Below are positions 169 through 5,817 of a stretch of DNA of 33,552 nt, one piece after another. The DNA is from an uncultured Flavobacteriales bacterium (lineage in GTDB: Bacteria > Bacteroidota > Bacteroidia > Flavobacteriales_C > GCA-002722245): the NCBI GenBank assembly GCA_905182585.1, contig CAJJCC010000007.1, positions 1-33,552 on the forward strand, read 5' to 3'. How positions within the stretch are numbered: position 1 is the stretch's first letter; each line of letters begins with the position of its first letter. The position numbers and the translations under genes are program-made. The notes under the pieces are model-generated. The model saw only the letters and a program-made list of their open reading frames with translations, was not told the DNA's origin and did no database searches.

Positions 169-894
169 ATGAATATATTTTGTTTAGTTACCGGTAGAGG
201 AAACAATACACTTAAGGATAAAAACATATTACCTGTTTTGAATCGTCCACTGGTAACCTATCCAGCGCTTGCAGCAAAAAAAGCAATTGATAACGATAAC
301 TTATATATAAGTAGTGATTGTGACAAGATTTTAGGTGCTGTTTCAGAATATAACTTTATCCCAATAAAAAGACCAAGCTCAATTTCTGGTCCCGACGCAA
401 AACATATTGATGCAATTACACATGGTCTTTCATTTATTGAAAACGATCGTAATTGTAAGGTTGACATTTTAGTGGTTCTACTTGCAAATTCTGCTACTGT
501 AAAGTCGGAATGGATTGAAGATGCGATTAACATGATAAAGAATGATAATTCTATCTCAGCAGTAGTTCCTGCATATAAAGAGCAAGATCATCATCCTTAT
601 AGAGCAAAAAAACTATCTCCTGAAGGAGATCTTGTCCCTTATTTTGATTTTGGAGATGAAAATATTTCTACTAACCGACAAGAATTAGATGATAATTATT
701 TTCTTTGTCACAATTTTTGGGTTTTAAATATTGCTCAATCAATTGATAAATTGGATGGCTTTAAACCGTGGGTTTTTCTTGGTAAAAAAGTAAAACCAAT
801 TATTGTTGAAGGGTGCTTTGATGTGCATACTGTAGAAGACCTTGAGAAAACTGAAGCTTGGGTAAAACAAAATATTATAAACACTGATGGTTAA
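169..894 (+). CDS. Acylneuraminate cytidylyltransferase-family protein (NeuA-like)
   Basis: A 241-residue protein of the CMP-sugar-acid synthetase family, which couples CTP to a 2-keto-3-deoxy sugar acid and releases pyrophosphate in the cytoplasm. The N-terminal nucleotide loop is LVTGRGNNTLKDKNILPVLN (R10, K18, N19), a variant of the usual PARGGSKxxxxKN. ISSDCDKIL matches the next conserved strand (normally STDDxEI). The usual QPTSPLR segment reads LLANSATV, which is atypical and could change substrate binding. The C-terminus (FDVHTVEDLEKTEAWV) resembles the family's DIDTxEDxxxAE end. It overlaps the next ORF if that gene starts at 887, but leaves a 10-bp gap if it starts at 905. The family is fairly secure; the sugar is unknown. 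Confidence 0.75.
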   Translation: MNIFCLVTGRGNNTLKDKNILPVLNRPLVTYPALAAKKAIDNDNLYISSDCDKILGAVSEYNFIPIKRPSSISGPDAKHIDAITHGLSFIENDRNCKVDILVVLLANSATVKSEWIEDAINMIKNDNSISAVVPAYKEQDHHPYRAKKLSPEGDLVPYFDFGDENISTNRQELDDNYFLCHNFWVLNIAQSIDKLDGFKPWVFLGKKVKPIIVEGCFDVHTVEDLEKTEAWVKQNIINTDG

Positions 895-904
895 GGAAAA
901 TATT

Positions 905-2302
905 ATGAATTTTGGTATTGTAATCCCAGCTCAGTTAGGAGGAAAAACGTACGAACGAAATCCCCTACAACCTTTTGGAAAAAAGGGAAAAACGCTTTTA
1001 GAATGGAAAATTAATCAAGTTAAAAAGGTTTTTTCTGAAAAGGATATTTTTGTAAATAGTGCCTCAGATGAAGTTTTAGAAATCGCAAAATCTTGTGGTG
1101 TAAATGCGTTAAAAAGAAACAACACAATTGATGTAGAATACAATGAATCTTGGGGAAATGTGATTCATGATATTGTTAAGGATATCGATAGAGAACATAT
1201 TGTATGGATTTCACCAACCCATCCATTTATGAACGAGATTGATTATAGTAAAGCGATCTCCATCTACGAAAACGGAATCAACGAATCAACATATGACTCG
1301 TTAATGTCTGTTTTTAAAATGGATGATTACATTTGGATAGGTGATAAAGCTGCAAATTATTCAGCTGATATAAACCAAGTAAGTAGAGAGGATCTTGCGC
1401 CAACATTTAAAGTTACTAATGGACTTTTTATAAGAGAGAAATCAAAAATACTAAACGACAAATATTACCTTGGCGACAACGTTTACAAGTTAGAAGTTGA
1501 CAAATTAGCCAGTCAAGATATCGATTCGAAGGATGACGTAATTATCGCAGAATCATTAATTACACATTACGAAAATGTTAAGCGATCTAATCAATCTATT
1601 ATATTCTTAGATTTTGATGGTGTAATTGTAGATTCTGCAAAAGAAGCATACGCAATGGCATTGCTTAGTACGGGAAGAATTAAAACGCTTTCGGAATTAG
1701 ATTTAGAAAGTGATCATGCAAAACGCTTTTTAAATCAAAGATGCCACATTGGACCAGCATGGAATTACTACTACCTTTTAAAGGCGATTGACGAAAATAA
1801 GGATGAATTATTTTCAGAGTTACTTCCAAATGGAGCTGGTAAAGAGGCCAAAAAATTTCAAGAACATTTCTTTGCTACTCGACAAGTAATTAGAAACCAT
1901 TTTTGGGATGAGTGGCTAGCACTAAATGAACTATATGAAGGTTCTCGTGCTTTTATCGATTTGATTAATCAAAACAATAATATTGTTATCGTTACAACAA
2001 AAGATGCTCCTTCGGTTAAGGCATTGCTTGGTAAATACGGTACCGATCGTGAGGTTACTATTTATGATGCAAAAGCTTATGAAGATTTTGGATGTAAATC
2101 GTTATTTATCGATGATTACATTAAATCCAATTGCATCAAAAAATCGTTGTTTATAGATGATTCTATGTCTCATCTTGAAAAATGTAATTGGGTTGAAAAC
2201 CTAAATACTATACAGGCTAAATGGGGTTATTTACCGCAAGAAGATTATAGTGACAATAAAGAAGAGGTTATTGATTTAATCGTATCAGTATTAAATGGAT
2301 AA
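905..2302 (+). CDS. Bifunctional cytidylyltransferase / HAD phosphatase fusion
   Basis: A 465-residue two-domain protein. Residues 1 to about 215 form a cytidylyltransferase domain: VIPAQLGGKTYERNPLQPFG is the nucleotide loop, ISPTHPF stands for the substrate loop, and DIDSKDDVIIAESL is the family's C-terminal signature. Residues from about 230 form a HAD phosphatase with motif I DFDGVIVDS (D236, D238), motif II VTTKDA and motif IV LFIDDSMSH. This resembles CMP-sugar synthetases joined to a phosphatase that dephosphorylates the ulosonate 9- or 8-phosphate before activation, but the phosphatase here is a capped HAD rather than KdsC-type. An in-frame ATG at 887 lies inside the upstream gene. 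The ATG at 905 follows an AAGGA-like site and starts directly at the conserved strand, so it is preferred. KSLFIDD occurs twice, 15 residues apart, near motif IV. Confidence 0.75.
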   Translation: MNFGIVIPAQLGGKTYERNPLQPFGKKGKTLLEWKINQVKKVFSEKDIFVNSASDEVLEIAKSCGVNALKRNNTIDVEYNESWGNVIHDIVKDIDREHIVWISPTHPFMNEIDYSKAISIYENGINESTYDSLMSVFKMDDYIWIGDKAANYSADINQVSREDLAPTFKVTNGLFIREKSKILNDKYYLGDNVYKLEVDKLASQDIDSKDDVIIAESLITHYENVKRSNQSIIFLDFDGVIVDSAKEAYAMALLSTGRIKTLSELDLESDHAKRFLNQRCHIGPAWNYYYLLKAIDENKDELFSELLPNGAGKEAKKFQEHFFATRQVIRNHFWDEWLALNELYEGSRAFIDLINQNNNIVIVTTKDAPSVKALLGKYGTDREVTIYDAKAYEDFGCKSLFIDDYIKSNCIKKSLFIDDSMSHLEKCNWVENLNTIQAKWGYLPQEDYSDNKEEVIDLIVSVLNG

Positions 2303-2843
2303 TATGGAGTATTTAAAAAACGAAGTTGTTGCCGTTCTGGTTATTAAAACACTAGAAGGTCTTGAAGCTAAAATCAAAAACTTAGTCGCAAAAGATTTCA
2401 AGGTAATTGAAGTTACTTTGAGAACTGAGTGTGCGTTGGACGCTATAAAGTTTATTAAGAAAACGTTCCCTCAATTAAAGGTTGGAGCTGGAACTATTTT
2501 AACAAAAGAACAGCTAAACATTTGTATTGAAAACAATGCAGATTTTGGAGTTGCTCCCGGACTTAATCAAGAAATAGTAAAATTAGCCCAACAGAATAAT
2601 TTTGATTTTATTCCTGGGATTGCAACTGCTAGTGAAATTGAAGCAGCCATGAGTTTAGGACTTAATTTGGTTAAAGTATTTCCAGCTAAAGTACTTGGAG
2701 GTGTTGACTTTATTAAGGCTGTAAGTGGACCATATCACATGATGAAATTTATGCCTACCGGTGGTGTTTCTGAAGCGGATTACAATGACTACTTATCGCT
2801 TCCTACTGTTTATTGTGTAGGTGGCACTTGGATGAATAAATAA
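2295..2843 (+). CDS. KDPG / 4-hydroxy-2-oxoglutarate aldolase family protein (short)
   Basis: A 182-residue class I aldolase of the Eda family, which reversibly joins pyruvate to an aldehyde through a Schiff base. The family residues are present: IEVTLRT (E39, R43), VGAGTI, the PGIATASE loop, the Schiff-base lysine in LVKVFPA (K127), PTGGV, and a final VGGTW. Bacterial Eda proteins are usually about 205-215 residues, and this one ends just after GGTW, so the C-terminal helix is missing. The start at 2295 overlaps the preceding gene by 8 bp; an alternative ATG lies at 2304. With no sugar-acid catabolic genes nearby, and cytidylyltransferases and a phosphatase upstream, it may make a 2-keto-3-deoxy acid for CMP activation rather than cleave KDPG. 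That role is inferred. Confidence 0.75.
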   Translation: MDNMEYLKNEVVAVLVIKTLEGLEAKIKNLVAKDFKVIEVTLRTECALDAIKFIKKTFPQLKVGAGTILTKEQLNICIENNADFGVAPGLNQEIVKLAQQNNFDFIPGIATASEIEAAMSLGLNLVKVFPAKVLGGVDFIKAVSGPYHMMKFMPTGGVSEADYNDYLSLPTVYCVGGTWMNK

Positions 2844-2903
2844 CCATTTTTATTCAGATCTTATTACAATACTAAGCAGCGATTAATTATTCAACACTTA
2901 TTT

Positions 2904-4292
2904 ATGAAAGTTACGTTTGTTTGTTCCGGAGTAAATTTTACATCATTTTCAGAATTTATCCCATTATCAAAATATTTAAATACCAATAACGTAGAAACAT
3001 CCTTTTTGATTGATAATAACGCCACTCAAAAAGTATTGGAAAGTTTAAAAAAAGAGAACAGAAACTTTTATTGTGAGGTTCAAAAAAAGGCTACTGTCAA
3101 AAGCTCTAATACCAAGGAAGTAACTCAGGCTCCATCAAAACTTAGTTTCATAAAAAACGCCTTCCCATTTAAAATTTTAAAACATTATTTTTCAGGTGTA
3201 CGAAGTTATTTAGCGGCTCTTAAAAACTTTAAGCATTATGAAGTTACTTCTTGTAATTTCTTATCAAATGAAAAACCCGATTGTTTAATCTTATATGGTG
3301 ACCGGAACCTAAGTATTGTTCCACCCTCAATTAAATACGCAAGAGAAAACAATATTCCAATAATTGTTCTGCAAGTCGCAGCCTCAATGAGATCTATTTT
3401 ATTACACGGAAGGCGATTGAGCATTGAGAACTCTCACTCCTTATTAATTAATAAAATTCTTAAAAAGAAATTCCCCAATCAATGGACGGCTGATCGGGAA
3501 AAGTCATACTCATTCTATTCATGGCATTTAACATTAGCACTATCAAAATTGAATATGCTACCTAAAAATCCATGGTACGATGGTGATAGTTGGGCTGACA
3601 GGCATTTATTGGTTAGTAAGCAAAATCTTATCGCTAAAAAGAAAGATGGAAGTTTATGTGAAAACGCTTCTATTGTAGGTCAGTACAGTCATGATTTATT
3701 GCACAAGAAATATGTGGACAGAGAAAAGACTCAAGTAGAAATGAACAATAAGTATTTTAATGGAAACGGAAAGCCGGCCATTATCTTTGCTTTCCCTCAG
3801 TTTTGGGAACATAACTTAATGAAAAAAGAGGATTCGTTTAAGGAGATTGCCCTTATCGTTGATGCTTTATCCAAAATTTCCAATTTTAACGTTTTGGTCT
3901 CTTTGCACCCTAAAATGTCATACGAAGATTACAAGATTTTTGAACTTAGTAGTCCTAACTTAAAAATTGCGAAAGACGAAAGGTTGAGCGATATTTTACC
4001 GTCGGGATCTATCTTTTTATCAACGTTCGAATCCACCATTAGTTGGGCTTTACTTTGTAAGGTAGTTCCTGTTTATCTAGATTTTTACGACTATGGCTTT
4101 TCGTTGAAAAACACGCCAGGCTGTGTTTCATTAAGCGATAAAAACAATTTGGAAACTGAGTTATTAGAAATTACAAATAACCTTACCAACTACGAAAACA
4201 AACTAGCAAGTCATGAAAACGAAACGCTACCTCCTTTTGATGGGAAAAGTGGCGAAAGAATTTTAAATGAAATAAAAGCATTAGTAAAATAG
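2904..4292 (+). CDS. GT-B-like glycosyltransferase, possibly CMP-sugar dependent
   Basis: A 462-residue soluble protein with two apparent Rossmann-like halves, as in GT-B glycosyltransferases. The N-terminal half begins VTFVCSGVNFTSFSEFIPLS and has PDCLILYGDRN near the middle. The C-terminal half contains SLHPKMSY (H335, P336) and LSTFESTISWAL (373-378). The pair resembles the HP and S-S/T motifs of bacterial sialyl- and polysialyltransferases and related CMP-sugar enzymes; the match is by eye only. There is no signal peptide or clear membrane span. It lies 60 bp after the aldolase gene and ahead of a flippase, so transfer of the sugar made by this cluster is a reasonable inference. Other GT-B families, including CDP-glycerol-type transferases, are not excluded. 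Confidence 0.5.
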   Translation: MKVTFVCSGVNFTSFSEFIPLSKYLNTNNVETSFLIDNNATQKVLESLKKENRNFYCEVQKKATVKSSNTKEVTQAPSKLSFIKNAFPFKILKHYFSGVRSYLAALKNFKHYEVTSCNFLSNEKPDCLILYGDRNLSIVPPSIKYARENNIPIIVLQVAASMRSILLHGRRLSIENSHSLLINKILKKKFPNQWTADREKSYSFYSWHLTLALSKLNMLPKNPWYDGDSWADRHLLVSKQNLIAKKKDGSLCENASIVGQYSHDLLHKKYVDREKTQVEMNNKYFNGNGKPAIIFAFPQFWEHNLMKKEDSFKEIALIVDALSKISNFNVLVSLHPKMSYEDYKIFELSSPNLKIAKDERLSDILPSGSIFLSTFESTISWALLCKVVPVYLDFYDYGFSLKNTPGCVSLSDKNNLETELLEITNNLTNYENKLASHENETLPPFDGKSGERILNEIKALVK

Positions 4293-4337
4293 CGCGCTTC
4301 TTTTTATTTCTGATTCTATTTTCAGCATCAAACAATC

Positions 4338-4345
4338 TATCTTTG
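4338..4345 (+). promoter_or_regulatory. Bacteroidota -7 box upstream of the flippase gene
   Basis: TATCTTTG followed by C matches the TAnnTTTG consensus exactly, 17 bp before the ATG at 4363. No clear TTG -33 box is seen at the usual distance. It would give the flippase gene a start of its own, separate from the genes upstream. Confidence 0.5.
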
Positions 4346-4362
4346 CACTTAAATTTTATTAA

Positions 4363-5817
4363 ATGAGTGGTAATAAACTGGTAAAAAACACTAGTTTTTA
4401 TTTGGCAGCAACCTACTTTCCTTATTTGGTTAGTTTTATAACGCTTCCAATCTACACTAGATATTTATCTACTGATGATTATGCTGTTTTAGCCCTAATC
4501 CAGTCATTTATTGCCTTTTTACCGATGTTAATGACGTTTCAGCTTCATACATCCATTTATAGGTTTTTTGTAGATTATGAAGGCAAAGAACTAAAGACTT
4601 TTATTTCGTCTATTATTCTTTTTCTTGTTATCACTTCCTTTACAGCTTCATACGTTTTAATGGATGCACTGCCTTCCATTTTAGACCTTGTTTTCCCCAG
4701 TATTCCTAGTACACAATACGATATTTTTAATTTAGCAATCATCATTGCTGTTCTTAATATATTCCAGGGAGTTAACATGGCCGTTGTGCGCATGAGAGAA
4801 GAGGCTAAAAAATTCATGGTCATTTCAATTAGCCTGTTAATCATATCTATTTTAATCACAATAGTGGAAGTGGTTCTTTTAGAGAAAGGTATAAATGGAA
4901 TGGTTGAAGCAATGCTAATCTCAGCAATTCTTTCCTTCATAACCTATACATTTTTTAATCGAAAATATTTTTCATTCTCTGTTAATTTGAAGTATGTAAA
5001 AGCTCCTTTACTCTTTTCACTTCCTTTGATTATTAATGCTTTATCTAGTTACATTTTCATGTATTCTGATAGGATTATACTTGAAAAATATGTTCCTACT
5101 TATCTTTCAATTGGAGCAATTGGACTTTACGCCCTAGCGGATAGAATCGCATTTTTATTCAAAGCCTTTGTAAACCAAGTTCAATCGGCCTTTCAACCTC
5201 ACTTTTATAAACTGTTTAAAGTAGATCCAGAAAAAGCCAAAATGGAGGCTTATAAAGCTTCCGAAATAGTAATGCTTATTGTAGCTATTGGAATCGTTTT
5301 AACAACTCTTTTTTCACGAGAGTTAGTCACACTAGTTTTTCCCGAAGAATACCATTCTGTTTGGCCGATGATTCCAGTTTTATCAACTTGTTTCTTCTTT
5401 AGGTCATTATACAGCTTTTCTAATCTTGGAATTTTCTTTCAAAAAAAGACGATTTATACTACCATCACCACCTTTATAGCTGCCGCTATTAACATATGTT
5501 TAAACTTGGTTCTTATTCCTATAATTGGTGTTTATGGAGCTGTGTTTTCAACTGTAGCATCATTTTTTGCTAGCTTTTTAATCATCAGAATTATCGCAAA
5601 TAAAATTGAGCCGATTCCTATGAACATAGCATTAGCTGTAAAATGTACACTTATTATGTTTGCAAGTATGGTAGGTGTTTGGCTTCTACACGAAAACGTT
5701 TCGAATAATTACATGATTCTTCTTTTAAAGTTTTCAACCTTAATTCTGGTTCTATTCTTTATTAAAAAAACGGGTATTATTTCAAAAGAGCAGGTAATTG
5801 GTGTATTAAAAAAGTAG
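4363..5817 (+). CDS. Oligosaccharide flippase family membrane protein (Wzx-like)
   Basis: A 484-residue, strongly hydrophobic protein with about 12-14 predicted membrane spans, the length and pattern of Wzx/PST exporters in the MOP superfamily. The start MSGNKLVKNTSFYLAATYFP is typical: a short cytoplasmic lead into span 1, then a proline-rich segment and ITLPIYTRYLSTDDYAVLAL. The family flips lipid-linked oligosaccharide repeat units across the inner membrane for capsule or O-antigen assembly. It closes the polysaccharide cluster and is followed by a strong terminator. Which glycan it carries cannot be read from the sequence. Confidence 0.88.
   Translation: MSGNKLVKNTSFYLAATYFPYLVSFITLPIYTRYLSTDDYAVLALIQSFIAFLPMLMTFQLHTSIYRFFVDYEGKELKTFISSIILFLVITSFTASYVLMDALPSILDLVFPSIPSTQYDIFNLAIIIAVLNIFQGVNMAVVRMREEAKKFMVISISLLIISILITIVEVVLLEKGINGMVEAMLISAILSFITYTFFNRKYFSFSVNLKYVKAPLLFSLPLIINALSSYIFMYSDRIILEKYVPTYLSIGAIGLYALADRIAFLFKAFVNQVQSAFQPHFYKLFKVDPEKAKMEAYKASEIVMLIVAIGIVLTTLFSRELVTLVFPEEYHSVWPMIPVLSTCFFFRSLYSFSNLGIFFQKKTIYTTITTFIAAAINICLNLVLIPIIGVYGAVFSTVASFFASFLIIRIIANKIEPIPMNIALAVKCTLIMFASMVGVWLLHENVSNNYMILLLKFSTLILVLFFIKKTGIISKEQVIGVLKK

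Follow-up and report, generated by a model that had tools for sequence, protein, structure and literature searches.

How might a bacterium build a cytidine monophosphate (CMP)-activated ulosonic acid when an aldolase occupies the place of the usual phosphoenolpyruvate (PEP)-dependent synthase? The question arises at the left end of contig CAJJCC010000007.1 from an uncultured Flavobacteriales bacterium, a Bacteroidota metagenome-assembled genome (MAG; GCA_905182585.1) of 1.52 Mb that is estimated to be 74% complete, with about a quarter of the genome missing. The window analysed here is this entire contig of 33,552 bp. Five open reading frames (ORFs), all rightward (+), lie at 169–5817, and ORF3 among them encodes an aldolase of the Eda family. 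We lean, with little more than even confidence, towards reading the cluster as a module that would supply CMP-ulosonate for a surface polysaccharide, with an Eda-family class I pyruvate aldolase replacing NeuB or KdsA for carbon–carbon joining.

An Eda-family aldolase among CMP-sugar genes

ORF3 (2295–2843, +) is assigned to the 2-keto-3-deoxy-6-phosphogluconate (KDPG)/2-keto-4-hydroxyglutarate aldolases by PF01081 (E=3.5e-59) and aligns to Escherichia coli KDPG aldolase 1eua over residues 10–180 (E=2e-47), so the Eda identity given in the original prediction holds. Its catalytic set is intact (Glu39, Arg43, Thr67 and the Schiff-base Lys127), and the phosphate-site motifs are present. ORF3 thus shares its catalytic and phosphate-site residues with the Eda enzymes of the Entner–Doudoroff and uronate pathways, whereas it differs from them in lying amid CMP-sugar and export genes and in having no C-terminal segment. 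KDPG aldolase is a reversible enzyme and has been used for synthesis in vitro. Overlaps of 8 bp at both the ORF1/ORF2 and the ORF2/ORF3 junctions suggest that the aldolase gene is joined to its neighbours as in an operon.

Might ORF3 instead cleave a sugar acid, either KDPG or hydroxyglutarate, and in this way recycle the polysaccharide's own sugar acid? Across 396 genomes of the phylum, the nearest Eda sequences are 37–47% identical to ORF3, and the closest Bacteroidota genes with a readable context mostly keep company with uronate or 2-keto-3-deoxygluconate (KDG) catabolism: UxaC-, KduI/KduD- and KdgK-like genes, hexuronate-type transporters and lyase-like genes. A Clostridia locus (L129) also pairs Eda with a KDG-kinase-like gene within a glycan cluster. 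The link between close homologues and sugar-acid catabolism, a concern of the original prediction, holds for most of those whose neighbours are readable. In the 74%-complete assembly that carries ORF3, the customary catabolic partners were not detected. ORF3 is the sole Eda there; no Edd (6-phosphogluconate dehydratase) scored above the cut-off, the lone match being IlvD-like (247 versus 708 bits), and no KDG kinase was found, the only PfkB-family kinase being closest to fructokinase. A sole Eda with no Edd argues against simple sugar-acid catabolism. Moreover, by its ORF list the operon holds no transporter, kinase or dehydratase gene, and the neighbours of ORF3 are activation and export genes. 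We consider a breakdown role improbable, and the simplest account would be that ORF3 is a catabolic aldolase recruited to another task. The closest Eda genes were set aside as a guide to function, their 37–47% identity being too distant for transfer.

Aldolases beside related cytidylyltransferases in several phyla

We classed gene neighbours at about 60 loci, using the label CTP1 for ORF1-type and CTP2 for ORF2-type cytidylyltransferases. Both types recur beside HpcH/HpaI or HMGL proteins rather than NeuB, in several phyla. Judged from gene order, the synthase slot is taken by an aldolase repeatedly, and this contig is no isolated case.

The closest analogue of the window cluster, as far as gene content indicates, is a Smithella locus (L130) that runs HAD phosphatase, HpcH-like protein, CTP2, CTP1. 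Three of its four proteins are related to window domains and the aldolase alone is different, HpcH-like in place of Eda; a low-confidence fold model of this aldolase matches HpaI class II pyruvate aldolases best among PDB structures. In Nitrospina (L114), the C-terminus of the same HpcH-like protein stands at the contig start and is followed by CTP2 and CTP1. An HpcH-like gene precedes CTP1 in another Nitrospinota locus (L172), and a Clostridia MAG (L131) has an HpcH-type neighbour with both CTP1 and CTP2. One genome (G112) carries two sets, HMGL–HpcH–CTP2–HAD and HMGL–HpcH–CTP1–HAD (the CTP1 set is L150). The order HMGL, HpcH, CTP2, usually with HAD next, was found in Psychroflexus, Flavivirga, Methylovulum, Methyloprofundus and two more Bacteroidota MAGs as well as in G112. 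Clusters of the HMGL–HpcH/HpaI–cytidylyltransferase–HAD type (Bacteroidota, Gammaproteobacteria and others) resemble the window in combining a non-PEP aldolase, a HAD protein and a related cytidylyltransferase with no adjoining NeuB. They differ in using metal-dependent HpcH/HpaI and DRE-TIM aldolases, whose reaction class is not that of the lysine aldolase Eda.

Among the loci classed, there was no second clear case of a KDPG aldolase with such cytidylyltransferases. L129 carries CTP1, CTP2, Eda and a flippase, with the KDG-kinase-like gene after Eda; we did not count it as a second example because of that pairing and because its Eda belongs to another subgroup, and this Eda may be catabolic. 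The proposal that an aldolase stands in place of NeuB or KdsA is consequently borne out in part: no NeuB was found in the assembly and aldolase neighbours recur across phyla, but the KDPG-aldolase version is clear only here.

The CTP1 proteins form a single clade of 11 rows (Shimodaira–Hasegawa-like approximate likelihood ratio test, SH-aLRT, 100) when 81 cytidylyltransferases are placed in one tree, and this clade spans Bacteroidota, Nitrospinota, Thermodesulfobacteriota and Bacillota. Neighbours are HpcH/HMGL in 6 of the 11, Eda in 2 (the window and L129), NeuB in 1 and none of these in 2, giving aldolase-type neighbours in 8 of 11, with L129 doubtful among the 8. Such aldolases number only a few in a genome of thousands of genes, so chance would not be expected to place one within a few genes of most clade members across several phyla; this is a rough argument and carries no formal probability.

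Further features were seen at loci of these types. A viral contig (IMGVR_UViG_3300030330_006573, 180 kb; L156:8001-9784) encodes a CTP1 56% identical to ORF1 with an HMGL-like lyase directly after it, and a second viral contig (L157) has CTP1 alone. Both Nitrospinota loci (L114:1907-3511 and L172:10617-12188) have a similar large protein after CTP1, with a VLFIYPNTFGMNMLPPAIALFSALLK-like start. Four loci (L152, L153, L154 and L173) hold cytidylyltransferase and HAD sets with no NeuB nearby, and in the last three a D-2-hydroxyacid-dehydrogenase-like gene was noted by eye close to the set; these three possibly represent another CMP-acid pathway.

Two cytidylyltransferase domains and a HAD phosphatase

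ORF1 (169–894, +) matches CTP_transf_3 (PF02348, E=1.6e-5) and gives PseF-type matches, scoring 50 bits against a PseF model whose cut-off is 206. It is homologous to the solved CMP-N-acetylneuraminic acid (NeuAc) synthetases 6ifd and 9ftb, and is 45–54% identical to CTP1 proteins from Nitrospina, Smithella and Clostridia (50% for Smithella L130). From the nucleotide motif ORF1 retains Arg10 and Lys18-Asn19; it also has the carboxylate pair Arg170-Gln171 and Asp218 of a DVH triplet. Across the CTP1 clade the nucleotide-motif Arg is kept (Lys in Smithella), as are Lys-Asn and one metal Asp, and in an alignment with the solved CMP-NeuAc synthetases the Arg-Gln pair is invariant. The matching Arg165 of meningococcal NeuA has been modelled as salt-bridging the carboxylate of Neu5Ac (PMC2901514); because of this, the pair fits a 2-keto acid substrate for CTP1. 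ORF1 is a probable CMP-ulosonate synthetase.

ORF2 (887–2302, +) joins a CTP2 domain to a phosphatase. Its N-terminal half (887–1591) also matches CTP_transf_3 (E=3.5e-5), so that two cytidylyltransferase domains are present as first described, but the nucleotide motif of the second is degraded: it reads PAQLGGKTYERN, without the motif Arg, where relatives have PxREGSxRxKxK. The Arg at the carboxylate position and a DID triplet are retained. The motif is still more degraded in the CTP2 proteins of Nitrospina and Smithella, with which the window domain clusters in the 81-sequence tree (SH-aLRT 93). Given this degraded motif, ORF1 is probably the activating enzyme of the pair, and the ORF2 domain would be a partner or a relic. 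We also weighed the idea of two CMP-sugars, ORF1 activating one ulosonate and the ORF2 domain another despite its motif. In one genome CTP1 and CTP2 do stand apart, each accompanied by an aldolase set of its own (L064 and L150), and the DID triplet of ORF2 points the same way. In the closest CTP1/CTP2 pairs (the window, L114 and L130), however, the CTP2 motif is degraded, which better fits a partner or regulatory subunit, and we hold two separate products to be very improbable.

The C-terminal half of ORF2 (1592–2302) is a HAD phosphatase (PF00702, E=1.6e-7) with the DxD, Thr/Lys and DD motifs intact as DFDGV, VTTKD and DDS, in agreement with the earlier assignment. A long insert, forming the cap, separates motifs I and II. 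The HAD protein of the Smithella cluster is 34% identical over its length and has the same three motifs.

Used alone as a query, ORF2 found no close relatives in public genome contigs, whereas a four-sequence alignment built from its best relatives in the phylum led to 27 loci in public genomes. Order and phylum searches with the whole of ORF2 brought up no other CTP–HAD fusion, only matches to the CTP domain, and scans of viral contigs with the CTP2 alignment, ORF3 and ORF4 gave no match. At two loci an ORF2-type cytidylyltransferase adjoins a Capsule_synth protein (L063:10312-11535) or a GT99 protein (L103:8872-10755). Both families include 3-deoxy-D-manno-octulosonic acid (Kdo) transferases, and the two proteins are candidates for the matching transferases.

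A possible textbook synthase beyond the contig edge

ORF1 starts 168 bp from the contig end. The interval contains an open frame (2–58, +; frame 2, 18 codons) that reads KEIKHLKNSNLQLLLNEN and ends at a stop, possibly the 3' terminus of a gene that begins beyond the contig edge. With this edge and a quarter of the genome missing, the organism may have a NeuB or KdsA gene directly upstream or in sequence that was not binned. On that account a PEP-dependent synthase would make the ulosonate, and Eda would serve another purpose, for instance a side reaction or pyruvate salvage, or be a passenger. Related loci give the idea some substance. In L151, CTP1 occurs with an inositol-monophosphatase (IMPase)-type phosphatase and NeuB, which from gene content puts the textbook enzyme in this very slot; a NeuB gene is also found downstream at two other loci, some 5 kb past CTP1 in L172 and some 4 kb past the CTP2 set in L110.

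We nevertheless think a hidden synthase unlikely, if the most serious of the alternatives. A search for NeuB (PF03102; KdsA was not searched for) found none in the assembly but was positive in 9 of 14 control genomes; this absence is weak evidence because of the missing quarter and the nearby contig end. In addition, the 8-bp overlap of the Eda gene with ORF2 would be unusual for a passenger, and an aldolase, not NeuB, adjoins most CTP1 loci. Separately, three loci in E. coli and Enterobacter (L099, L100 and L102; two annotated capsule-type plasmids) combine a cytidylyltransferase, an inositol-monophosphatase-type phosphatase and a long NeuB-family protein of about 514 amino acids.

Points that weigh against the aldolase route

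Several observations count against an aldolase-built ulosonate, beginning with the contig edge and the mostly catabolic company of the closest Bacteroidota Eda genes described above. ORF3 itself ends right after GGTWMNK and lacks the C-terminal segment that other Eda proteins have; it has 182 amino acids compared with 205–232 for the natural KDPG aldolases among its PDB matches, and the DNA beyond its stop has no obvious continuation of that segment. It also sits on a long branch of the Eda tree without close kin, and the only other Eda near these cytidylyltransferases is that of L129, with its KDG-kinase-like partner and different subgroup. As for ORF1, the second metal Asp (Asp211 of NeuA) is His in the CTP1 clade (DVH/DIH), and a D211A change in NeuA cost 15,000-fold in kcat (PMC2901514).

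The comparative loci carry difficulties of their own. HpcH and HMGL co-occur in many clusters, which makes it ambiguous which of the two is the bond-making enzyme. By sequence, the Smithella protein can be assigned to HpcH only weakly, its match falling below the Pfam cut-off, and its fold match comes from a low-confidence model with HpcH sequences in the alignment. Relatives of this protein in Ilyobacter stand in a catabolic setting; among plasmid relatives, one is in a carboxylic-acid catabolic cluster and the other has no recognised cytidylyltransferase nearby.

Proposed pathway, transfer and export

The aldolase-built ulosonate remains the reading we prefer, and within it we infer the direction of the aldolase, its substrate and product, and the action of all the enzymes on one molecule. 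ORF3 would join pyruvate to an aldehyde phosphate, yielding a 3-deoxy-2-ulosonate phosphate; glyceraldehyde 3-phosphate, for example, would give KDPG, a six-carbon acid. The HAD domain of ORF2 would then strip the phosphate, drawing the reversible reaction forward, and ORF1 would couple CMP to the free ulosonate. Finally, placing the ulosonate in the polysaccharide would fall to the flippase ORF5 and a transferase, which may be ORF4. Some capsules do contain short ulosonic acids: that of E. coli K3, for example, is reported to have a 4-deoxy-2-hexulosonic acid (Dengler 1988, as cited in PMC10433991).

ORF4 (2904–4292, +) is a candidate glycosyltransferase by its LHPK motif only; it had no match in Pfam, NCBIfam, PDB sequences or 297 sampled phylum genomes besides itself, and its fold model, made from the single sequence, is unusable (predicted local distance difference test score, pLDDT, 33). 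The sialyltransferase-like character first ascribed to it was not upheld by any family, PDB or phylum homologue. ORF5 (4363–5817, +) is a polysaccharide flippase (PF01943, E=1.5e-19; PF13440), which together with the ORF coordinates confirms a rightward gene set ahead of a flippase.

Set against known systems, the module would combine familiar parts in a different way. With NeuB–NeuA synthesis of CMP-sialic acid and with the pseudaminic and legionaminic acid (Pse/Leg) pathways it shares a NeuA-family ORF1, the carboxylate Arg-Gln, a phosphatase and an adjoining flippase, but it has a KDPG aldolase where they have NeuB, which was found neither in the operon nor in the assembly. The KdsA–KdsC–KdsB route to CMP-Kdo offers the same order of chemistry, namely aldol-type joining, dephosphorylation and CMP activation. 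The window differs from it in that a class I lysine aldolase replaces PEP-dependent KdsA, the HAD protein carries a long insertion separating motifs I and II, and the cytidylyltransferases are nearer NeuA than KdsB. In the open-access literature we found no published account that links a CMP-sugar cluster to an aldolase of the KDPG or HpcH type, most subscription journals being outside this scope.

More broadly, and only tentatively, the window may be the KDPG version of a widespread undescribed class of CMP-activated 3-deoxy-2-ulosonic acids, made by reversible pyruvate aldolases of two to three families (KDPG/Eda, HpcH/HpaI and HMGL) that replace NeuB or KdsA, with working and non-working cytidylyltransferase partners in some lineages. 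The pathway comprises three enzymes and is directly testable. If it is real, it would account for puzzling 'acylneuraminate cytidylyltransferase' genes without an adjoining NeuB and would give KDPG aldolase, a reversible enzyme that has long served in synthesis, a natural role in biosynthesis. NeuB-based surveys of sialic-acid-like sugars would then overlook a family of surface sugars, some of them probably with fewer than nine carbons.

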